55,842 nucleotides of DNA, taken from the NCBI GenBank assembly GCA_023249475.1, contig JAHFCO010000006.1, forward strand, positions 1 to 55,842. Direction: 5' to 3'. The stretch's first letter is position 1. Each line of letters begins with the position of its first letter. The position numbers were made by a program, and so were the translations under genes. This document shows, piece by piece, positions 39,090-55,842 of the stretch. The DNA is from Bacillota bacterium (GTDB lineage Bacteria; Bacillota_I; Bacilli_A; Erysipelotrichales; Erysipelotrichaceae). The notes under the pieces are model-generated. The model did no database searches. It worked only from the letters and a program-made list of their open reading frames with translations, and had not been told where the DNA came from.

Positions 39090-41774
39090 ATGACAGAACA
39101 AATCAAACTGCTCGAATTCGTCAATAAGGTGTCGATGACGAAAATGGGCTCCAAAAAAGGAATCAACGAGGAAGACCCAAGATTCAAACTGCTTGAAAAA
39201 GTCGTCACCGAAGAAATGGCCGAAGTGGCGTTGGCGTTGGAGTATCGTGTCCACATGACCGCGGAAGAAGTCGCGCAGAAATGCGGGAAACCTCTTGAAA
39301 GGACACGCGAACTTCTTTGGGACCTGGCGGTCGCGGGCGTCGCGACAGTCAAACGCGAAGACAAAGGCGATACCTACTGGTATGAAACCTGGGTCCCCGG
39401 GATTTTCGAAATGGTCGTCAACAATAAAGAGAACGTGAAGAAATACCCGCAAATCGGCAAAGCGTTCGACGACTATGGGTTGATGAGAAATCCCGTGGCC
39501 GCCGGCAACATCCCGATGGGACACGGGTTGATGAGGGTCATCCCCATCGAGACCGCGATCAATGGCGAGACGAGAAGGGCTTCCTATGAAGAAGTATCCA
39601 AATACATCGACGAAGCGCGTATCCTCTCGGTTTCAGACTGTTCATGCCGCACTTCGCGTGAAGAAATGAACCAGGGTTGCGGACACTTGAAAGAAGACAT
39701 GTGCATTCAATTGGGGGATGCGGCCGAATATTACATCCGTACCGGACGCGGTCGCGAAGTGTCCAAAGAAGAAGCGATCGACATCATCAAAAAAGCCGAG
39801 CGGGACGGATTGATGCATCAGATCCCCAACACCGAAGGGGAAGGTCACACGCACGCCATCTGCAACTGCTGTGGCTGCTCGTGTTACGCCATGCGGGCGG
39901 CGGGGATGTATCACAATCCCGACATGGTTAGATCCAACTATGTCAGTACCATCGATGCGACGAAATGCGTCGGTTGCGGCGAGTGCGTCGAAGTCTGCCC
40001 GACCAATGCGATCCGTCTTGGCCAGAAGATCTGTACGATCAACGAAGTTAAACTCCCGGTACGTACCGAGTTTCCCTCGGACACGGAATGGGGACCGGAC
40101 AAGTGGAATCCGGACTACCGGATCAACCGCAAGGAATCGCTCGATACCGGTACGTCGCCATGTAAAACCGAATGCCCCGCGCACATCTCGATCCCGGGCT
40201 ACATCAAGTTGGCGTCGCAAGGCCGCTATCGCGAAGCCCTGGAAATGATCAAGAAAGAGAACCCGTTCCCGGCGGTTTGCGGACGCGTCTGTCCGGCATT
40301 GTGCGAGAGCGCGTGTTCACGAAACGGGTTGGATGATTCCGTTGCCATCGACGATATCAAGAAATTCATCGCCGAACAGGATCTTCATCAATCCAGTCGC
40401 TATATTCCGACCATCAAAAACACCTATGACAAGAAGATCGCGGTCGTCGGGGCCGGTCCGTCCGGATTGACCTGTGCGTATTTCCTAGCGGTGGAAGGAT
40501 ACAAGGTCACCGTCTTTGAAAAGGAAAAAGACCTCGGTGGGATGCTGCGTTTCGGAATCCCCGAATTCAGGCTACAAAAAGATGTCATCCAGGCAGAAAT
40601 CGACATCCTAAGGGAAATCGGTATCGAATTTAGAACCGGGGTAAGCGTCGGCGAAGATGTGACGATCAAGCAACTCCGGGATCAAGGGTACAAAGCGTTC
40701 TATCTTGCGATCGGCGCACAAGGCGGTCGCCGCATCAACATTGAAAACGGCGATGCCGAAGGCGTCGTGACCGGGGTCGATTTCCTGAAGATGGTTTCAT
40801 CATCGTCAAAATCGATGAAACTCGGGAAGACGATCGTCATCGGAGGCGGAAATGTCGCGATCGATGTCGCACGGACCGCATTGCGCTTGGATCATGAAGG
40901 AGTCGACCTGTATAGTTTGGAATCGAGAGAGGAAATGCCGGCGTTGAAGGATGAAATCCACGAGGCGTTAAGCGAAGGGGTACACATCCACAATCAATAC
41001 GGACCGAAAAGGATTCTTGTCGAAAACAACAAGGTTGTCGGCATCGAGTTCAAGAAATGCGTGCGACTTCTCGATGAGAACGGGAAATTCAACCCGCTAT
41101 TCGATGAGAACGATTGCATCACGGTCGAAGCGGATCATATCCTGTTGTCCGTCGGACAACAAATCGACTGGGGAACGTTGCTTCATGGATTGGATGTCGA
41201 AATGAACCCCAACCGGACGATCAAAGTGGATCCGAAAACCCTTCAATCAAGCGTCGCCGACATTTTCGCCGGGGGAGATGCCGCAACCGGGCCGAAGTAC
41301 GCCATCCATGCGATTTCCCATGGCAAAGAGGCAGCCATTTCGATCCATCGCTTCGTCAACCGCGGGCAAAGTCTCGTCTATGGTCGCAACAACCGATCCT
41401 TCGTCGCCCTGGATCGCGACAATGTCGACTTCACGGGTTATGACCACGTTCGCCGTGAACGTGTCTATACCCTTACGGTAGAGAACCTTCGCGGGGACTT
41501 CAAGGACCCAAGGGGCGTATTGACGGAAGAGCAAGTCAAAAAAGAAACCTCACGTTGCTTGTCATGCGGGATCTCGGTCGTGGATGAGTTCATGTGCGTC
41601 GGATGTGGTGCATGTACGACCCGATGCAAGTTCGAAGCGATCAAACTTGTACGGAAATACGATGCGGTCGGGGTTGATTTCCCCGATCTGAAACCGGTGG
41701 TCGTGCGGCATGTCATGAAACGCAAAGTGCGAATCCTCACGAAAAACATTAAGACTGCGATACTTGGCAAGTGA
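39090..41774 (+). CDS. Multi-Fe-S, GltD-like FAD/NAD(P) oxidoreductase
   Basis: An 894-residue soluble redox protein. Residues 1-110 are winged-helix-like (MTAEEVAQKCGKPLERTRELLWDLAVAG). Then come a Cys cluster (C184, C186, C197, C205), a CNCCGCSC stretch (258-265), a ferredoxin motif (C293, C296, C299, C303), and a GltD-type domain (350-800) with CGRVCPALCESAC, the FAD site VVGAGPSGL and the NAD(P) site VIGGGNVAIDVARTA. Near the C-terminus CVGCGACTTRC completes a further cluster. It should move electrons between NAD(P)H, FAD and ferredoxin-type clusters. ATG 39090 (AAGGA) is chosen over 39066. Substrate unknown; flanked by two membrane paralogues. Confidence 0.88.
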   Translation: MTEQIKLLEFVNKVSMTKMGSKKGINEEDPRFKLLEKVVTEEMAEVALALEYRVHMTAEEVAQKCGKPLERTRELLWDLAVAGVATVKREDKGDTYWYETWVPGIFEMVVNNKENVKKYPQIGKAFDDYGLMRNPVAAGNIPMGHGLMRVIPIETAINGETRRASYEEVSKYIDEARILSVSDCSCRTSREEMNQGCGHLKEDMCIQLGDAAEYYIRTGRGREVSKEEAIDIIKKAERDGLMHQIPNTEGEGHTHAICNCCGCSCYAMRAAGMYHNPDMVRSNYVSTIDATKCVGCGECVEVCPTNAIRLGQKICTINEVKLPVRTEFPSDTEWGPDKWNPDYRINRKESLDTGTSPCKTECPAHISIPGYIKLASQGRYREALEMIKKENPFPAVCGRVCPALCESACSRNGLDDSVAIDDIKKFIAEQDLHQSSRYIPTIKNTYDKKIAVVGAGPSGLTCAYFLAVEGYKVTVFEKEKDLGGMLRFGIPEFRLQKDVIQAEIDILREIGIEFRTGVSVGEDVTIKQLRDQGYKAFYLAIGAQGGRRINIENGDAEGVVTGVDFLKMVSSSSKSMKLGKTIVIGGGNVAIDVARTALRLDHEGVDLYSLESREEMPALKDEIHEALSEGVHIHNQYGPKRILVENNKVVGIEFKKCVRLLDENGKFNPLFDENDCITVEADHILLSVGQQIDWGTLLHGLDVEMNPNRTIKVDPKTLQSSVADIFAGGDAATGPKYAIHAISHGKEAAISIHRFVNRGQSLVYGRNNRSFVALDRDNVDFTGYDHVRRERVYTLTVENLRGDFKDPRGVLTEEQVKKETSRCLSCGISVVDEFMCVGCGACTTRCKFEAIKLVRKYDAVGVDFPDLKPVVVRHVMKRKVRILTKNIKTAILGK

Positions 41775-46236: not shown

Positions 46237-46434
46237 ATGCAAGGCAAAGTAAAAAAGTTTAACAAGGAAAAAGGTTTTGGATTCATCAAATTGGCTGACG
46301 ATCGTGATGTATTCTTCCACTATTCGGAATTGGTAATGGACGGATTCAAGAACATCGAAGAAGGTGCCGAAGTTGAATTCGATTTGGTCGATGGCGACCG
46401 CGGCTTACAAGCTCGTAAAATCATCAAACTTTAA
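46237..46434 (+). CDS. cspA: Cold-shock domain protein
   Basis: A 65-residue single cold-shock domain. The RNA-binding motifs KGFGFI (RNP1) and VFFHYSEL (RNP2; usually VFVHFS) are present. It binds single-stranded RNA/DNA and acts as an RNA chaperone. It has its own promoter, a hairpin leader and a terminator, and is therefore a single-gene unit. The exact paralogue name is not certain. Confidence 0.93.
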
Positions 46435-47101: not shown

Positions 47102-47324
47102 ATCGGAAGAAATGGGAGACAGGATTCGAAGGTCATGTGAGACGATCGGAGGCCGGATCGGGTACATCTTATTCGAGGATGATCCGGCGTTTTATCTGTC
47201 GCTTGGGAAGGATGTTCAAAGTAACGGGCAGGGAAGTGAAAATCGAAATATTACCAATAATAATTAGATTATATATACTAACATAAAACATAATAAACAA
47301 TATAATATAAATAAGTATAATAAT
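47102..47324. other. Spacer with AT-rich tract
   Basis: No supported gene. A 51-codon frame (ATG 47112) has no good ribosome site and follows a terminator. 47250-47324 is very AT-rich and may be an UP element for the next promoter, like the one at 44038-44095. Confidence 0.45.
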
Positions 47325-47353
47325 TTGACAAAAAGTATGAACTGATGTATGAT
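47325..47353 (+). promoter_or_regulatory. Consensus promoter of the small envelope-gene unit
   Basis: TTGACA, 17-base spacer, TATGAT. Confidence 0.88.
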
Positions 47354-47430
47354 GTTCCTGCGATCACCCTTTGCCTACACAAAGCGGGCCGTATCGTGTT
47401 GGATGATCTCTCCTATAAGAAAGGGACAAA

Positions 47431-47628
47431 ATGAAAAATCACATCGAAAGAAGCTTCGTTGATTTCATACAATCCTTGCTTGGACGTAAAACGGAAAGTG
47501 CGAGAACCTATACCATGGTTAATTATGGTATTGCGAAGTCGAATCTGAAGATGGAACTCCGTCCCCTTTCCGACTTCGAGTTCGAATTCGTCAAGATCTG
47601 GGATCCGAGAGCCGCAAAGCACGACTAA
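47431..47628 (+). CDS. Small hypothetical protein (65 residues)
   Basis: A 65-residue soluble protein, first gene after a consensus promoter, with AAAGGGA before the ATG. N-terminal amphipathic helix (HIERSFVDFIQSLLG), then a strand-rich part. No family recognised. Codon use fits the chromosome. Confidence 0.6.
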   Translation: MKNHIERSFVDFIQSLLGRKTESARTYTMVNYGIAKSNLKMELRPLSDFEFEFVKIWDPRAAKHD

Positions 47629-47711
47629 TCGAACCCGCGGCGAAACCGATGTTTCTCTGAGATTGGCGGCACAGTAAACAAGGACACTTTTATGTGGAAA
47701 GGATGAAAAAT

Positions 47712-47861
47712 ATGTTATCCACAATTGTTATCATCTTAATCGTATTGTGGCTTGTCGGTGTTGTGACGTCGACGACCATGGGCGGATTGATTCATATCCT
47801 ACTTGTCATCGCGGTCATCATGGTGCTCGTACGTTTGATTTCCGGCAGAAAAATCCTTTAA
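47712..47861 (+). CDS. lmo0937-type small membrane protein
   Basis: A 49-residue protein with two close helices (IVIILIVLWLVGVV and GLIHILLVIAVIMVLVRLI) and a basic RKIL-like end. This is the pattern of the lmo0937/DUF5670 family of tiny stress-related membrane proteins. AAAGGA supports ATG 47712 rather than 47703, which would overlap the ribosome site. Confidence 0.85.
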   Translation: MLSTIVIILIVLWLVGVVTSTTMGGLIHILLVIAVIMVLVRLISGRKIL

Positions 47862-47923
47862 TCATTTATTGGAGAAGATTTAGCGAGTCAAGAATGAAAT
47901 GCCCACACCGGAGGATGTACTCT

Positions 47924-48214
47924 ATGAGAATGACAACGAAACAACCACGACTTGGATTGTCGATATTGTCTAGTTTAGCCATCATGATTGCAATGCCATT
48001 GACGGCAAATGCACAAGGGGCAAGCAGGGTTAAGGATTCATCAAGCGTAATGCTCGACCCGCTGATGGCGATCACGAAAGTACAAGCGGGATGGATCCCG
48101 AGCTTCGCATCGATCCTCTATCTTGTTTTGCTTGTGGGTCTATTTCTTGTCTTGCTCATCGTCATCGTGATGAGCATCAAGTTCAGGCAAGAAGAAAAAC
48201 GCGATATTTTGTAA
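47924..48214 (+). CDS. Small exported membrane protein, partner of the sortase-like gene
   Basis: A 96-residue protein with a cleavable signal (LGLSILSSLAIMIAMPLTANAQ, cut after ANA) and one C-terminal membrane helix (FASILYLVLLVGLFLVLLIVIVM) before a charged tail. GGAGG supports ATG 47924. The stop codon touches the ATG of the sortase-like gene, so translation is coupled and a physical link between the two products is plausible. No LPXTG-like sorting motif is present. No family recognised. Confidence 0.65.
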   Translation: MRMTTKQPRLGLSILSSLAIMIAMPLTANAQGASRVKDSSSVMLDPLMAITKVQAGWIPSFASILYLVLLVGLFLVLLIVIVMSIKFRQEEKRDIL

Positions 48215-48880
48215 ATGGTGAATTATCCATTCCTGGCGGAGTTCGGTATGTTTACCGGAATCTTCGTCATCCTCTTTTGGTCATATCAACGTCTCGGCAA
48301 TCCCGACAAGGACGGGAGGGTGACTCCGGAAGAGAAGGATGAAGATCGATCCGTCGAATATCTGACCCTCGCTAAAGACATTGTCGATCTTGTTTATCGG
48401 AAATCGGAGACTAGGTCCCACACGCCAAGTTACGATGAAGAATCAAAGGCCGAAATCCAATATGATGCAAACGACTCGGGGAGCGTTCTCGGAACCATCG
48501 AGTTCCCGAAACTCGCCCGTAAAATCAGCATTCATCAAGGGACAGGCGAACTACAGATGCGCAACGGCGCGGGGCATTATGAAAAAAGCGCCAAACCGGG
48601 CGAAATGGACCACTGTGTCCTGGTCGGTGACTACGAAACGATATTCCACGGGATCGAAACCCTTATGTCCGGCGACGTGATGGTCGTCAAAACATCGAGC
48701 GGCGTCTTTACCTACGAGGTGACGGAATATCAAAGTACACCGTTAAGCAAGAAAATCGCCCTCCTTCAATGCGATTTCGCCAAGCTCACGCTCACGACGG
48801 CACATCCCAACGCGGTAACGACATCCCCAACCCCGCGACATACCATCCATGCCACGATGATTTCATCCGTCTTGAATTGA
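48215..48880 (+). CDS. Sortase-fold protein lacking catalytic His and Cys (pseudo-sortase)
   Basis: A 221-residue protein with one N-terminal helix and a class D/E-like sortase domain (about 90-218). GAGHYEKSAKPGE (118-130) and YETIFHGIETLMSGDVMVV match the family closely. However, the catalytic His of the usual AGHRDT motif is D139 (VGDYET), and the catalytic Cys of TLTTC is A196 (TLTTAHP). The active-site Arg is kept (R208). It therefore cannot be a normal transpeptidase. The frame is intact and the gene is coupled to a small membrane protein gene, so it is likely a working non-enzymatic protein, perhaps a peptide-binding scaffold. Confidence 0.8.
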   Translation: MVNYPFLAEFGMFTGIFVILFWSYQRLGNPDKDGRVTPEEKDEDRSVEYLTLAKDIVDLVYRKSETRSHTPSYDEESKAEIQYDANDSGSVLGTIEFPKLARKISIHQGTGELQMRNGAGHYEKSAKPGEMDHCVLVGDYETIFHGIETLMSGDVMVVKTSSGVFTYEVTEYQSTPLSKKIALLQCDFAKLTLTTAHPNAVTTSPTPRHTIHATMISSVLN

Positions 48881-48916
48881 CATGACCCGATCCTAGAGAG
48901 GGTAGAAAGAAGATGA

Positions 48917-49231
48917 ATGAAAAAATTACGAGTTCGCCTGGTCAACACCGGCGAAGAAGCACTGGATCTGAAAGAAGTGATTGAAGAAACAAACAGCGAC
49001 GACCATGAAACCATGGCGGCCGTTTCCCAAAGCGACGAGTTGATCGTCGATCAAGACAGGATTCAAGGATTGATCGGACTGGACAAACTCGAACCGCCGG
49101 AAAACGATCATGGGTTCATGTTCGGGAAGATCGACCAACGGATCAATAAAGCCAGGATCTACCGCGGCTGGATTCGAAAGCATGCCCGAAAGCATAAGAA
49201 AGTCAGTTATACATCGAATGGAAACGAATAA
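48917..49231 (+). CDS. Hypothetical protein downstream of the pseudo-sortase
   Basis: A 104-residue charged protein (LRVRLVNTGEEALDLKEVIEETNSDD; later GLIGLDKLEPPENDHGFMFGKIDQRINKARIYRGWIRKHARKHKK). No recognised domain; a basic C-terminus could bind nucleic acid or membrane lipids. The ribosome site is only AGAAGA, so the start is uncertain. A terminator follows. Confidence 0.55.
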   Translation: MKKLRVRLVNTGEEALDLKEVIEETNSDDHETMAAVSQSDELIVDQDRIQGLIGLDKLEPPENDHGFMFGKIDQRINKARIYRGWIRKHARKHKKVSYTSNGNE

Positions 49232-49235
49232 CCCG

Positions 49236-49258
49236 ACCCGCGCATAGAGCGGGTTTTC
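49236..49258 (+). terminator. Terminator before the glucan synthase gene
   Basis: ACCCGC / GCGGGT, seven-base loop, then TTTCGTT. Confidence 0.75.
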
Positions 49259-49297
49259 GTTCAAATCGAAGTGTTTATTTCACAAGGAGGCGTAAAG

Positions 49298-52200
49298 ATG
49301 AATGAACTACAAATGAAGCTCGTGGCCGCCGTTTTCATCATTGGGATGATCGGATGGCTAGTGATCTATTCATTGCTTAAAATGAGGAAAACCCGCAGCA
49401 TCGACTTACGGGATGCCCTTTTGACCGTGGAAGAATTGGAAGCCCATGCGAAACGGATCGCTTTGGAACACGATGTTTCAAAAAACCGCAACCACCTGAG
49501 TTTCCCGATCCCGCGCATGAACGACAACTACAATGCGATCCTTTCGGTCTACAAAAGCCTCAACGAGGACGTCGTCCAACAACGTTCGGTTTCGTCCGCC
49601 GCGGAATGGCTTCTGGACAACTTCTATGTCATCGAAGAACAGGTGAAGGGGATTCGTCTTGAACTGAACATGGAAGAATACCATCGGTTACCGATCCTGA
49701 AGAGCGGACCGATGAAAGGATATACCCGCGTCTATGCGATCGCGATGGAGTTGGTATCGCATAGCGACGGACTGATCGAAGAAGAGATGCTGCTGAAATA
49801 CCTCAGTGCCTATCAGTCCCACAGTATCCTGTTCAATCGCGAGATCTGGATGATTCCGACGATGATCCGTTTGGCGTTGATTGAAAACGTACGGATGATC
49901 TCGCAGAAAATCAAGACGACCCGCATCCAATGGCAAATGGCGGACGATATCGTCGACGACTATTGGATCGGCGAGGTCGAACAGACCGATGCGATGATCC
50001 AACATTTGAAGTCAAGGCTCGATGCCTTGTCGGAAGACAATCCTTCCTTCATCGAGCACCTTTTCTATCGTCTGCGCCGATCCGGGAAGAGCTACATCAC
50101 CGTATTGCGCTTCATCGACGAGATCTTGGAGAAATACGATACGACGACCGAGGCTTTGGCGCAGAAGGAACACAATATCCAGGCGGTCGGCACGGTCGCC
50201 ATCGGGAATTGCGTCATCAGTCTGAAGTATGTTTCGACGCACAATTGGGAGAAGCTCTTCGAGACGGTCAGTTATGTCGAACAGATACTACGTAAAGACC
50301 CCAACAACGTCTATGCCCGCATGGACGAGGGTTCACGCAACCATTATCGGATCCAGATCGAGAAGATGGCGAAGACCTATCGGGTATCCGAACTGCATAT
50401 CGCCCGGGAAGCGGTCGCCTTCGCGACACGCAGCCTGGATCTGCCGGATGACGATGTATTGAAACAAAAGAAATGCCATGTCGGCTATTACTTGGTTTCA
50501 TACGGGATCTCCGAACTGGAAGAACGCCAAAAAGGCAGGATCAGTCGCAAGACGAAACTATCCCGCTTCTTCAGCAATCAACCCGGACGCATCTATGTCC
50601 TCTTCAATCTCTTCCTGATGTCCCTCTTGATCGCCGTCGCGCTTTGGGTTTCCTATCAAGCCTCGACGACCGTCTCGTTTTTGACCCTAGTGTTGACCGG
50701 ATTGGCCGTCGCGATCCCCGTCTCCGAAATCGCGATTTCACTGACCAATTGGATCGTCGTCAAAGTTCAAAAACCGACCGTTTTCGTCAAGCTTGAACTG
50801 AAAGACGGGATCCCCGACGAGATGAAAACCATCGTCGTCATCCCGGCGATCCTTTCCGACGAGAAACGGGTCGCCCAACTCATCGAAACGATGGAGAACC
50901 ACTACATCTCCAACAGCGAGAAGAATCTTTACTTCGCCTTGGTCGGTGCGTTCAAGGACTTCGGGGAAGTGGACGCGGAAGACGACGTGGCGATCCTTCA
51001 AGCCACGTTCGAAGGCATCCTCGATTTAAACCACAAATATGCGAAAGACGACAAGGAAATCTTCTACTTCTACCACCGGATCCGCAAGTTCAACGAGAAC
51101 GACGGGAACTGGACGGGATGGGAGCGGAAACGCGGGGCGTTGATGGAATTCAACGATATCCTGCTGGGGAGCGAAGACACCAGTTTCAACTTCTTCTCCA
51201 ACGTCGAACTGCCGGCGACCGACATCAAATACGTCATCACCTTGGATGCGGATACCCTGCTTCCGATGGGGATGGCGAAGAAAATGATCGGTACGATGGC
51301 GCATCCGCTCAACGTCCCGATCATCGATCGGGAAAAAGGGATCGTCACGCACGGACACGGGCTGATGCAGCCCCGTGTCTCCTTCGACGTGGACAGTTCC
51401 AACCGATCGATCTTCTCCAGGGTCTATACCGGACAAGAAGGGATCGACCCGTATGCGAGCGCGATCTCCGATGTCTACCAGGATTTGTTCGATGAAGGGA
51501 TCTTCACCGGGAAGGGCATCTATGATTTGAACGTGTTCCAGGAAGTCCTGAAAGACACGATCCCCAACAACGCGGTATTAAGCCACGACTTATTGGAAGG
51601 GTCCTATGTCCGCGCGGCCTTGGTGAACGATTTGGAACTGGTGGATACCTATCCGTCGCGATACAACGCCTACATCACCCGCATGTACCGTTGGATCCGC
51701 GGGGACTGGCAGTTGTTGCCATGGTTGGGGAAACAACCCTATAACGGAAACAACGAACGCAGCAAGAACGCCTTATCCATGCTTTCACGATGGAAGATCA
51801 TCGATAATCTACGCCGTAGCCTCGTTTCGATCGCCATCATCGTCCTTTTAATCCTGGGTTTCAGCATTCTCCCGGGAAGCGCCTTGTTTTGGGTGTCGCT
51901 GGCGCTCATCACCTTGACCCTCCCTTTACTCATGGCTCTGACCGACCGCCTGTTTTCAGGCAAGTTCATGCCCGACCGGGTCAAACGCCATATCGGCGGG
52001 TTCTTCGGCCTCAAAGCATCCGTCTCGCAACTCGGTCTAAGGATCCTTTTCATCGCCTATCAATCCACCGTCGCGCTGAGTGCGATCTTCGTCACCTTGA
52101 ACCGCGTCTTGTTTACGAAAAAGAACATGTTGGAATGGGTCACTTCCGCCGATGCGGAAAAGGGTCAGGACAACTCGCTGAAGAGTTATTTCATGACGAT

Positions 52201-55200
52201 GCGGATGGGAAGCCTGATCGGGATCCTCTTGGTCGGGTTATCGTACTTTTATAAACCGTCCGACCTCCCCATCGCCATCCTGTTTTTCATCCTCTGGTCG
52301 ATCGCCCCCTGGGTCGCCTACCGCATCAGCAACGATGATAAACGCGTCCAAGTCAAACTGAGCGACGAGGACGTCTTGACCCTCCGTTTGAGTGCCCGAA
52401 AGACCTGGCGGTATTTCGAAGAGTTCTCAAACCCGCAGAACAACCATCTCGCCCCCGACAACTACCAGGAAGACCCGCCGCGCGGCATCGCGTTTCGAAC
52501 CTCCCCGACGGATATCGGATTGGGCATGCTTGCGAACCTGACGGCACGCGACTTCGGGTACATCAGCACCCTTCAACTCAAGGAAAACCTTGAGAAAACC
52601 GTCAAGACGATCCAACGGATGGAGAAGTGGCAAGGCCATCTCTACAATTGGTACGATACGCGGACCTTGAAGCCGTTGCACCCCGTCTATATCTCGACGG
52701 TCGACAACGGGAACTATGTCTGTTATTTGATCACGCTGGTCCAAGGACTGAAGTCCTATGCGCAGAGCCCGATGTTCGATGCTTCCCTGATCCAAGGGAT
52801 CAACGATACGCTGATGTGCGGCCAAGCCGAACATGCGATGATCCCGAAGGAACTGGCGATTTTCGACGATGTCGTGGTGAACGGCGAAATGAACCTCATC
52901 AAATGGCGGAAGTCGTTGAAGACATTGGCGGAAACGGCGATGTTGGCATCGACCGCGAAACAGCCGTGGCGGTTCAAAGTCGAAACGATGATCAAGACCT
53001 ATCTGAATGAAATCGAAGAGTATTCCCCTTGGTTGGGTTTGATCGAGAACCCGGGCATCCAGTGCACGGACGAAGCATCGATCCAAGCGTTGGACCGATT
53101 GACACGCGTATTGACCTTACCGATCCGACTCGAGGATGCTCAGGATTTCTTTACCGTGGTTTTCCGCCTGATCGAAACGCTGGAAACCCATTCTGCCCAA
53201 GACGAAACGGCCAAGACCTGGCTGAGCGACTTGAAACTTGCGATGATGCAGTCCCACGCCTCGATCGACCGGGACATCCGATCCGTCGAACGCTTGATCC
53301 AACAGGTCGAGACGCTCTCCTGGGAGACGAAATTCGGCGTCCTGTACGAGCCAAGCAAACAACTCTTTTCCATCGGCTATCATGTCACCGAACAAAAACT
53401 CACCAACTCCTACTACGACCTCTTCGCCTCCGAATCGCGTCAGACCAGTTTCATCGCGATTTCCCGCGGCGAAATCCCCCCGAAGCATTGGTTCATGCTG
53501 GGTCGCTCCTTGACCTTGGTGAACCGTTATAAAGGGTTGGTGTCATGGAGCGGTACGATGTTTGAATACCTGATGCCGCTTCTGATCATGAAGAACTTCA
53601 GGAACACCTTGTTGGATGAGACCTATTCCTTCGTCATCAAGAGTCAGATGAAATACGGGAAACAACGGGGCATGCCCTGGGGGACCTCGGAATCCGGCTA
53701 CAACGTATTGGATTCGCACATGGATTATCAATACAAAGCCATCGGCGTCCCTTGGCTTGGTTTGAAGCGCGGCTTGATCGAAGATGCGGTCTGTGCGCCG
53801 TACGCAACGTTCTTGGCATTGATGGTGGCGCCGATCGAAGCGATGAAGAACATACGTAAACTTCAGTCCGAAGGGATCGAAGGGGCGTACGGGTTCTATG
53901 AAGCGGCAGACTATACGCCGGAACGATTGGGTTTTGAACCCAAGCGTTCCCTCATCAAGAGTTACATGGCCCATCATCAAGGCATGAGCCTGACCTCCAT
54001 CAACAATCTTCTGAACCAAAACATCATGCAGGAACGCTTCCACAGCGACCCGTATGTCAAAGCGGGGACTCTGTTGTTGCAGGAGAAAGTCCCGCTTAAC
54101 GTCGTGTTCACGAAAGAAACCAAAGAAAAAATCATTCCTTTGAAAGAATCGGTCTTCCATGAATCCGGTTCGTTCAGGAAGTTCAACCAACCCGACTTCC
54201 GTCTACCCAACGCCCATATCCTTTCCAACGGGTTCTATTCGGTCATGCTGAGCGACAAAGGGACCGGCTACAGTAAAGACAAACTGGCGGCGATCTCCCG
54301 ATACAGGGAAGACGCGGTCCTCGACCAATCCGGCATGTTCATCTATCTTAAAGAAATGACCCAAGGGAAAGTCTGGTCGTCCGCCTATGCGCCGATCAAC
54401 GCGTTGCCTCAAACCTATGAAGTGACGTTCACCCCGGACAAAGCGACCTATCGTCGGATCGACCATCAGATCGAAACGTTGACGGAGATCATCGTCACTT
54501 CGGGCGACCATGCGGAAATCCGCAAACTGTCGCTGAAGAACCGATCCGACGCGGCCGTCGATGTCGAACTGACGAGTTACTTCGAAGTCGTCCTCGGGGA
54601 TGCCCGTTCGGATTTGGCGCACCCCGCCTTCAGTAACCTGTTCATCGAAACGGAATATGATGAAGAAAAACGTTCGCTGATCGCGAACCGTCGACCAAGG
54701 TCGACCACGGACAACCGGTTATGGCTCGCCACGACCCTCGTCAGCGACCAACCCTTGATCGAACCCCTCCAATACGAAACGGATCGGTTGGCGTTCATCG
54801 GACGCAACCGTGACTTGGCGAATCCCTTGGCGATGCTGAAGGGGAAACCGTTGACGAATACGATCGGTCCCGTGTTGGATCCGATTTTCAGCCTGCGCGC
54901 TAAAGTCAGCATCGAACCCGGGAAGTCGGTTCAACTCTATTATGTGACCACCTTGGCCCAAAGCAAGGAGTCCCTTCTGACCTTGATCGACAAATACCGC
55001 TCGACGGAAACCTGTTCGACGGCGTTCTGGTTGGCCCTGACACGCAGTCAGATGGAAAACCGTTACCTCAACATCAAACCGGATGAAATGCAATTGTACC
55101 AAGAGATGATCTCCAACATACTCTATCCCAGTCCGCTGCGACGCAACGTCGCAGCGGAGATCCGCAAGAATAAAAAAGGACAAGCGGATTTGTGGCCCTA

Positions 55201-55842
55201 CGGAATCTCCGGCGACAAGCCGATCGTCCTGGTCACGCTGAGTAAAGTGGAAGAAGTCTCGGTTCTCTATGAAGTCATGAAAGCCCACGATTACTGGCGA
55301 TTGAAAGACCTGCTGGTCGACTTGGTCATCCTCGTCAACGAAGAGAAGAGTTATCTCGACCCGTTGGCCACCCTGATCGGGGACATCGTATTGTCACGGG
55401 CCACGCGCGACAGCATGAACCGCCAGAAAGATGTTTTCATCTTGAATTCACGAAACCTGGGCGAAGGGGACTTGACGATGTTCCGCGCGATCGCGAAAAT
55501 GGAATTCACCGGGGATGGACGGACCATGGAAGAACAGATCCTTTCCGTGGCCGCCATACCGATCCTCCGTCTACGTAAAACCGAAGCGGATCCTGAATCC
55601 CGGTCGTATCCTGAAATCCGCCAGATCCCCTTGCCCGAACTGAGGCATTTCAACGGGTTGGGAGGGTTCAGCGGCGAGGGTGACGAATACGTCATCCGCC
55701 TGGAGAAAGATCAGACGACGCCCGCCCCGTGGTCGAACGTCGTCGCCAACCCGAACTTCGGGTTCATAACCAGCGAATCCGGCGTAGGATACACATGGAG
55801 CGCCAACAGCAGGGAAAACAAGATCACCCCCTTCTCCAACGA
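49298..55842 (+). CDS. NdvB/ChvB-type cyclic beta-1,2-glucan synthase, N-terminal 2,181 codons (cut by window end)
   Basis: A giant membrane enzyme open to the last base. In order: an N-terminal helix; a long helical region (about 60-420); membrane helices (430-475); a GT84-type glycosyltransferase domain with ITLDADT (D650, D652) and the R/QxxRW motif at 795-799; more helices (845-1010); a glycoamylase-like domain (1035-1600; PPRGIAFRTSPTDIGLGMLA, WGTSESGYN, AHHQGM); and the start of a GH94-type phosphorylase domain (from 1630). Such proteins build and trim cyclic beta-1,2-glucans from UDP-glucose. GGAGG fixes the ATG. Product linkage is inferred from the family. Confidence 0.88.
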   Translation, partial: MNELQMKLVAAVFIIGMIGWLVIYSLLKMRKTRSIDLRDALLTVEELEAHAKRIALEHDVSKNRNHLSFPIPRMNDNYNAILSVYKSLNEDVVQQRSVSSAAEWLLDNFYVIEEQVKGIRLELNMEEYHRLPILKSGPMKGYTRVYAIAMELVSHSDGLIEEEMLLKYLSAYQSHSILFNREIWMIPTMIRLALIENVRMISQKIKTTRIQWQMADDIVDDYWIGEVEQTDAMIQHLKSRLDALSEDNPSFIEHLFYRLRRSGKSYITVLRFIDEILEKYDTTTEALAQKEHNIQAVGTVAIGNCVISLKYVSTHNWEKLFETVSYVEQILRKDPNNVYARMDEGSRNHYRIQIEKMAKTYRVSELHIAREAVAFATRSLDLPDDDVLKQKKCHVGYYLVSYGISELEERQKGRISRKTKLSRFFSNQPGRIYVLFNLFLMSLLIAVALWVSYQASTTVSFLTLVLTGLAVAIPVSEIAISLTNWIVVKVQKPTVFVKLELKDGIPDEMKTIVVIPAILSDEKRVAQLIETMENHYISNSEKNLYFALVGAFKDFGEVDAEDDVAILQATFEGILDLNHKYAKDDKEIFYFYHRIRKFNENDGNWTGWERKRGALMEFNDILLGSEDTSFNFFSNVELPATDIKYVITLDADTLLPMGMAKKMIGTMAHPLNVPIIDREKGIVTHGHGLMQPRVSFDVDSSNRSIFSRVYTGQEGIDPYASAISDVYQDLFDEGIFTGKGIYDLNVFQEVLKDTIPNNAVLSHDLLEGSYVRAALVNDLELVDTYPSRYNAYITRMYRWIRGDWQLLPWLGKQPYNGNNERSKNALSMLSRWKIIDNLRRSLVSIAIIVLLILGFSILPGSALFWVSLALITLTLPLLMALTDRLFSGKFMPDRVKRHIGGFFGLKASVSQLGLRILFIAYQSTVALSAIFVTLNRVLFTKKNMLEWVTSADAEKGQDNSLKSYFMTMRMGSLIGILLVGLSYFYKPSDLPIAILFFILWSIAPWVAYRISNDDKRVQVKLSDEDVLTLRLSARKTWRYFEEFSNPQNNHLAPDNYQEDPPRGIAFRTSPTDIGLGMLANLTARDFGYISTLQLKENLEKTVKTIQRMEKWQGHLYNWYDTRTLKPLHPVYISTVDNGNYVCYLITLVQGLKSYAQSPMFDASLIQGINDTLMCGQAEHAMIPKELAIFDDVVVNGEMNLIKWRKSLKTLAETAMLASTAKQPWRFKVETMIKTYLNEIEEYSPWLGLIENPGIQCTDEASIQALDRLTRVLTLPIRLEDAQDFFTVVFRLIETLETHSAQDETAKTWLSDLKLAMMQSHASIDRDIRSVERLIQQVETLSWETKFGVLYEPSKQLFSIGYHVTEQKLTNSYYDLFASESRQTSFIAISRGEIPPKHWFMLGRSLTLVNRYKGLVSWSGTMFEYLMPLLIMKNFRNTLLDETYSFVIKSQMKYGKQRGMPWGTSESGYNVLDSHMDYQYKAIGVPWLGLKRGLIEDAVCAPYATFLALMVAPIEAMKNIRKLQSEGIEGAYGFYEAADYTPERLGFEPKRSLIKSYMAHHQGMSLTSINNLLNQNIMQERFHSDPYVKAGTLLLQEKVPLNVVFTKETKEKIIPLKESVFHESGSFRKFNQPDFRLPNAHILSNGFYSVMLSDKGTGYSKDKLAAISRYREDAVLDQSGMFIYLKEMTQGKVWSSAYAPINALPQTYEVTFTPDKATYRRIDHQIETLTEIIVTSGDHAEIRKLSLKNRSDAAVDVELTSYFEVVLGDARSDLAHPAFSNLFIETEYDEEKRSLIANRRPRSTTDNRLWLATTLVSDQPLIEPLQYETDRLAFIGRNRDLANPLAMLKGKPLTNTIGPVLDPIFSLRAKVSIEPGKSVQLYYVTTLAQSKESLLTLIDKYRSTETCSTAFWLALTRSQMENRYLNIKPDEMQLYQEMISNILYPSPLRRNVAAEIRKNKKGQADLWPYGISGDKPIVLVTLSKVEEVSVLYEVMKAHDYWRLKDLLVDLVILVNEEKSYLDPLATLIGDIVLSRATRDSMNRQKDVFILNSRNLGEGDLTMFRAIAKMEFTGDGRTMEEQILSVAAIPILRLRKTEADPESRSYPEIRQIPLPELRHFNGLGGFSGEGDEYVIRLEKDQTTPAPWSNVVANPNFGFITSESGVGYTWSANSRENKITPFSN

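Follow-up and report, generated by a model that had tools for sequence, protein, structure and literature searches.

A full-length sortase-fold protein without the catalytic His and Cys, encoded in a diverged copy of a class D sortase operon, and its possible retention in a non-catalytic role

Sortases are enzymes that fix proteins to the cell wall, and they depend on a catalytic Cys. The locus described here, in a window of 55,842 nucleotides (the whole stretch of DNA that was analysed) from an uncultured relative of Erysipelotrichaceae, raises the question of why a full-length sortase gene should be carried when two key residues for catalysis are gone. The original prediction had described a sortase whose fold is kept and whose frame is intact, the catalytic His and Cys being missing, and this was confirmed by a profile match, structure prediction and alignment; the coordinates and residue numbers that it gave (Asp139, Ala196 and Arg208) proved to be right by alignment, and the GAGHY and TLTT motifs were indeed kept. 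The Pfam Sortase profile (PF04203) matched the product over positions 1-123 of 125 with an E of 6e-14 and 52.3 bits against a cut-off of 26.6. The best NCBIfam models were those of class D (E 3e-23), yet the scores were under the curated cut-offs, at 82.3 of 165 bits for NF033746 and 87.9 of 140 bits for NF058671.

Table 1. Features of the pseudosortase locus, in positions of the window.
Feature	Position	Strand	Description
Promoter region	47280..47355	+	TTGACA - 17 nt - TATGAT (47325-47353); 80% nucleotide identity to G000:C10:74146-74221; 11/12 matches in promoter scan
lmo0937/DUF5670-family small membrane protein	47712..47861	+	49 aa; NCBIfam NF033488 E 2e-16; Pfam DUF5670; duplicate of copy at G000:C10 ~74.4 kb
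96-aa signal-peptide/one-helix protein	47924..48214	+	C-terminus GWIPSFAS + hydrophobic helix + KFRQEEKR
Pseudosortase, class D-like	48215..48880	+	221 aa; N-terminal TM helix 5-28; sortase domain ~88-220; D139/A196/R208 in place of H/C/R
Asp139 codon GAC	48629..48631	+	Catalytic His column in alignment
Ala196 codon GCA	48800..48802	+	Catalytic Cys column in alignment
Arg208 codon CGA	48836..48838	+	Active-site Arg, retained
104-aa ORF	48917..49231	+	Between pseudosortase and glucan synthase; no family match
Cyclic glucan synthase-like protein	49271..55842	+	>2190 aa, runs off window; GH94 supersandwich E 2e-85; Glycoamylase E 4e-19

Among the residues of an active sortase, the Cys and His are thus replaced and the Arg is present, and all three were intact in 90 of 90 other sortases checked (62 + 8 + 20, from its own order, its class and other public genomes). 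Compared with the intact paralogue described below, codon 196 differs at three nucleotides (GCA against TGT) and codon 139 at two (H139D, against CAT), and the conserved residues adjoining the catalytic sites were also changed (R140Y, Y197H, F199N and Y209H). A sequencing error at the active site is very unlikely, since several multi-nucleotide changes cluster there. Because the Cys is absent, the known sortase mechanism predicts that neither a thioacyl intermediate nor transpeptidation would occur. As judged from its sequence, the pseudosortase is a pseudoenzyme in the biochemical sense, of a kind well known among kinases and proteases.

The structure prediction that had been proposed as a check of the kept fold indicated a clear sortase beta-barrel. 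In an AlphaFold2 model built with 10 sequences, the N-terminal helix (residues 5-28) was followed by a predicted barrel from ~89 to 220, with a pLDDT mostly of 84-95, falling to 65-78 near the beta6/beta7 and beta7/beta8 loops. The PDB matches of the model were sortases (Foldseek E 3e-11), and the VIA match to sortase E had a Z of 19.5 with an rmsd of 1.7 A over 127 residues. Conservation was judged by the 39 columns that do not vary among the six nearest class D sortases. The pseudosortase was found to keep 24 of them, comprising structural G, P, T, F and Y residues as well as GAGH, T195 and R208, and to have lost 15, including N133H, H139D, R140Y, D179K, V182A, I183L, V184L, C196A, Y197H, F199N and Y209H. 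By our own grouping of the columns, those in the cleft or the beta6/beta7 loop were lost in 11 of 12 cases against 4 of 27 elsewhere (Fisher p 8e-6), and the enrichment was weaker (p 0.07) when the active site was defined by a fixed window of +/-3 residues. The changes in the beta6/beta7 loop suggest a ligand other than LPDTG, and binding of LPXTG may also be gone.

The genome contains three sortase genes, one of which provides a point of comparison that the original prediction had missed. On this contig, 27 kb from the pseudosortase gene (G000:C10 ~75.4-76.1 kb), is a class D sortase that shares 41% identity with the pseudosortase and is intact, with all three catalytic residues present (GHRET, TLTTCYP); it passes NF058671 (172.3) and falls just short of NF033746 (156.9). 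Its operon consists, in order, of a promoter, an lmo0937-type membrane protein, an LPDTG-anchored DUF3494 (ice-binding-like) protein, which is the sole LPXTG protein above the Pfam cut-off in the genome, and the class D sortase, and continues with a 51-aa TM protein and CsbD; all of it lies outside the window (L035:12147-14653, G000:C10 ~74.1-76.7 kb). The shared promoter region, the shared lmo0937 gene (78% nucleotide identity over 138 nt between the copies) and the common gene order identify the locus in the window as a diverged duplicate of the intact operon, a relationship that the original prediction had likewise missed. The leader of the intact operon is ~190 bases shorter than that of the window operon, which holds a 65-aa ORF between the promoter and the lmo0937 gene (47431-47628) with no family match. 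The dS between the lmo0937 copies was ~1.1, against 0.54 between this genome and a sister species (a comparison of only 49 codons), indicating that the duplication, or the import of a second copy from a relative, probably preceded the species split.

In the sister genome (G001, of the same genus), the lmo0937 gene, the 51-aa TM protein and CsbD are present, but there is no DUF3494 gene, class D sortase or pseudosortase; the DUF3494/sortase pair is missing between the lmo0937 gene and the TM protein as a clean presence/absence difference. An Erysipelothrix MAG, read from translations, carries a DUF3494-sortase pair near lmo0937-like and CsbD-like genes. The third sortase of the genome (L002, on G000:C15), with the motifs GGHN and YTCYPF and 93% amino acid identity in the sister genome, is flanked by a membrane protein and a secreted protein that has a hydrophobic helix at its end but no clear LPXTG. 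The window contig also holds several diverged paralogues of genes elsewhere in the genome, namely the lmo0937 copy, a cold-shock-protein-like gene (46237-46434), the region of which shares 85% identity with a further copy on contig C29 as well as with that of the sister genome, and a gene for a 902-aa Fe-S/flavin oxidoreductase (39369-41755), with a second copy, 68% identical, on contig C2.

The 96-aa protein occupies the slot that the LPDTG substrate has in the intact operon. Its ATG is preceded by GGAGG 9 nt upstream, and its stop touches the start of the pseudosortase gene (TAA|ATG). An ungapped alignment was obtained between its last 37 residues and the DUF3494 sorting signal (GWIPSFAS... 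against GELPDTGS...) with a shuffle p of ~0.001, although this likeness is suggestive only, as the shuffles preserve composition and not hydrophobic clustering. The helix and the charged tail of a sorting signal are present, but the motif reads IPSFA in place of LPXT[G/A]. The Gram_pos_anchor profile gave no match in this protein, the match between its N-terminal half and the DUF3494 protein was not significant (p 0.1), and no convincing relatives of it were found within the family. From its position and sequence, the 96-aa protein is probably a leftover or a replacement of the sortase substrate. The touching upstream gene had been named as the likely partner of the pseudosortase; this is plausible in view of the substrate slot and the C-terminus resembling a sorting signal, and the identity of the partner stays at the level of a proposal.

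Downstream, no terminator-like site was found on the + strand from 47356 to 49500, so that the transcript may continue into the 104-aa ORF and the glucan synthase gene; judging from the sequence, both are probably on the same transcript as the pseudosortase. No RNA families were found close to the operon. The cyclic glucan synthase was considered as a conserved partner and rejected, because it was present in only 1 other of 195 family genomes (49% identity), without a sortase or lmo0937 gene upstream in the stretch read; it may possibly have been acquired horizontally.

Whether the pseudosortase is conserved with its altered residues was addressed by the search for homologues with the same Asp/Ala pair that accompanied the original prediction as a proposed check. 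No orthologue with these residues was found in 315 genomes of the order, in 395 genomes of the class, or by single-protein scans of GTDB contigs and viral contigs; the alignment scan returned intact sortases only, plus one false positive (L087). Among the genomes searched, the pseudosortase is known from this genome only. No other branch in the tree was as long as its own (2.38, the intact paralogue having 0.83), as expected under relaxed constraint; its nearest rows were class D-type sortases, with an open fork and a long branch, and the operon homology supports a class D origin. The proposed dN/dS check was not informative as a test of selection: against the intact paralogue, pN was 0.39 and pS 0.74, with synonymous sites near saturation, and given this saturation omega on the pseudosortase branch could lie anywhere from about 0.25 to about 1, or at 0.5-1 if dS was ~1, as for the duplicated lmo0937 gene.

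These observations bear on the strongest of the alternatives, which we regard as possible but clearly short of an even chance: that the gene is a decaying duplicate, which still encoded a working sortase as it diverged and lost first its substrate gene, leaving a signal peptide and an anchor remnant, and then catalysis, the still intact frame reflecting a recent loss followed by drift. The longest branch, an apparently degenerate substrate as well, the lack of pseudosortase orthologues in the genomes searched and the sister genome, in which the absence of the pseudosortase, the intact class D sortase and the DUF3494 gene indicates that the system is dispensable, all point in this direction. 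The frame, the TM helix, the ribosome-binding site with its coupling and the structural residues are, however, intact, and the three differences in codon 196, together with several changes in the cleft, argue that the loss is not brand-new. Furthermore, under simulated neutral drift, a 221-codon frame stayed free of stops with a probability of ~0.03 by 0.2 substitutions/site, stops arising in ~97% of cases, and of about 0.001-0.002 at 0.5 substitutions/site, frameshifts being uncounted; hence, most of the divergence, although not necessarily its latest part, would have taken place under selection for a full-length protein. The original prediction had set against itself an intact homologue in a close relative combined with neutral drift; such a homologue exists as the same-contig paralogue, and the neutral drift that was also required is not established, part of the evidence speaking against it.

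Since the frame and the structural residues are retained, a continuing non-catalytic role, as had been predicted, is likelier than decay, and retention by selection is probable. We therefore lean, with somewhat better than even confidence, towards the pseudosortase having been retained to bind a peptide or a partner outside the membrane, as a sortase-fold protein that is anchored in the membrane and does not cleave; against this stands that no orthologue with the Asp/Ala pair was found in the genomes searched, so that conservation across species is not seen. According to this explanation, an operon of lmo0937-type membrane protein, LPXTG surface protein and class D sortase would have been duplicated in the lineage, the copy 27 kb away staying intact. 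At the locus in the window, the place of the substrate would have been taken by an exported 96-aa membrane protein whose sorting signal is degenerate. The sortase there would have lost its nucleophile (Cys to Ala), its general acid/base (His to Asp) and most other cleft residues, while keeping the membrane anchor, the predicted barrel and the backbone-binding Arg. What the pseudosortase would then bind is a peptide or partner outside the membrane, and as a working hypothesis the first-choice candidate is the 96-aa protein, which is translationally coupled and carries IPSFA just outside the membrane. A docking role is chemically reasonable because R208 and T195 are kept, as in a peptide-binding C208A sortase: S. 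pyogenes SrtA with this substitution still binds LPATA and LPATS; its Arg216 touches the P4 and P3 carbonyls, and the Thr that precedes the Cys helps to hold that of P1 (PMC9520033). A more specific form of the same idea, which we offer as speculation and hold to be doubtful, is that a sortase-substrate pair has turned into a non-covalent receptor-ligand pair, in which Arg-based docking is kept, the IPSFA of the substrate stub is held and not cut, and a permanent membrane complex is formed in an operon with a cell-envelope glucan synthase.

It may also be considered that the dead sortase acts in trans, binding the LPDTG DUF3494 protein or the active paralogue and thereby competing with or regulating sorting. 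With one recognisable LPXTG protein and one intact class D paralogue in the genome, a promoter region common to both operons that makes co-expression plausible, and Arg208 kept, such a modulator is conceivable; the changes in the pocket-side residues (N133, R140, the beta6/beta7 VIV, Y197 and F199) nevertheless predict an altered specificity, and we consider it unlikely. An active enzyme of different chemistry, with, for example, Asp139 as general acid/base and another nucleophile, is highly improbable in spite of the Asp at the His position and the new His197 and His209 beside the former Cys and Arg, as the nucleophile position holds Ala and, the conserved Thr apart, no Ser or Cys substitution is found nearby in TLTTAHPN.

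The locus is a warning that annotations as 'sortase' based on profiles only can include dead copies. With a likely ancestor-like operon present in the same genome, it can be tested side by side how catalysis was lost, how the substrate collapsed and whether a new binding role arose. The pseudosortase resembles known class D sortases, such as B. anthracis SrtD/'SrtC' (2ln7), C. perfringens SrtD (4d70) and B. subtilis YhcS, in its single N-terminal anchor, predicted barrel and Arg, and in the neighbouring gene for a secreted protein whose C-terminus has a helix and a charged tail; its best sequence match was 2ln7 (E 9e-11), and the VIA match of its model to 4d70 had a Z of 17.3. It differs from them in lacking the catalytic His and Cys, in the changed beta6/beta7 and post-Cys motifs and in a neighbour without LPXT[GA]. 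The intact paralogue is its closest relative, and their operons have the promoter region and the lmo0937 gene in common, but that of the paralogue combines H/C/R with a full LPDTG DUF3494 substrate and leads into the 51-aa TM protein and CsbD instead of a glucan synthase. In the open-access literature searched, no natural full-length sortase without both the catalytic Cys and His was found to be described. The nearest precedent is YwpE, a sortase homologue of B. subtilis that is regarded as having no sortase function, the same genome also encoding a working class D sortase (PMC3222306); in strain 168, it is truncated to 102 aa by the deletion of the first ~81 codons (PMC8092201). YwpE is thus a truncated relic that keeps LxTC, whereas the pseudosortase is full-length and has lost its residues by substitution. 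Laboratory sortases with bound peptides (spySrtA C208A and SrtE C222A) share with it the replacement of the nucleophile by Ala, but these are engineered, keep the His and belong to other classes, whereas the pseudosortase represents a natural double loss.
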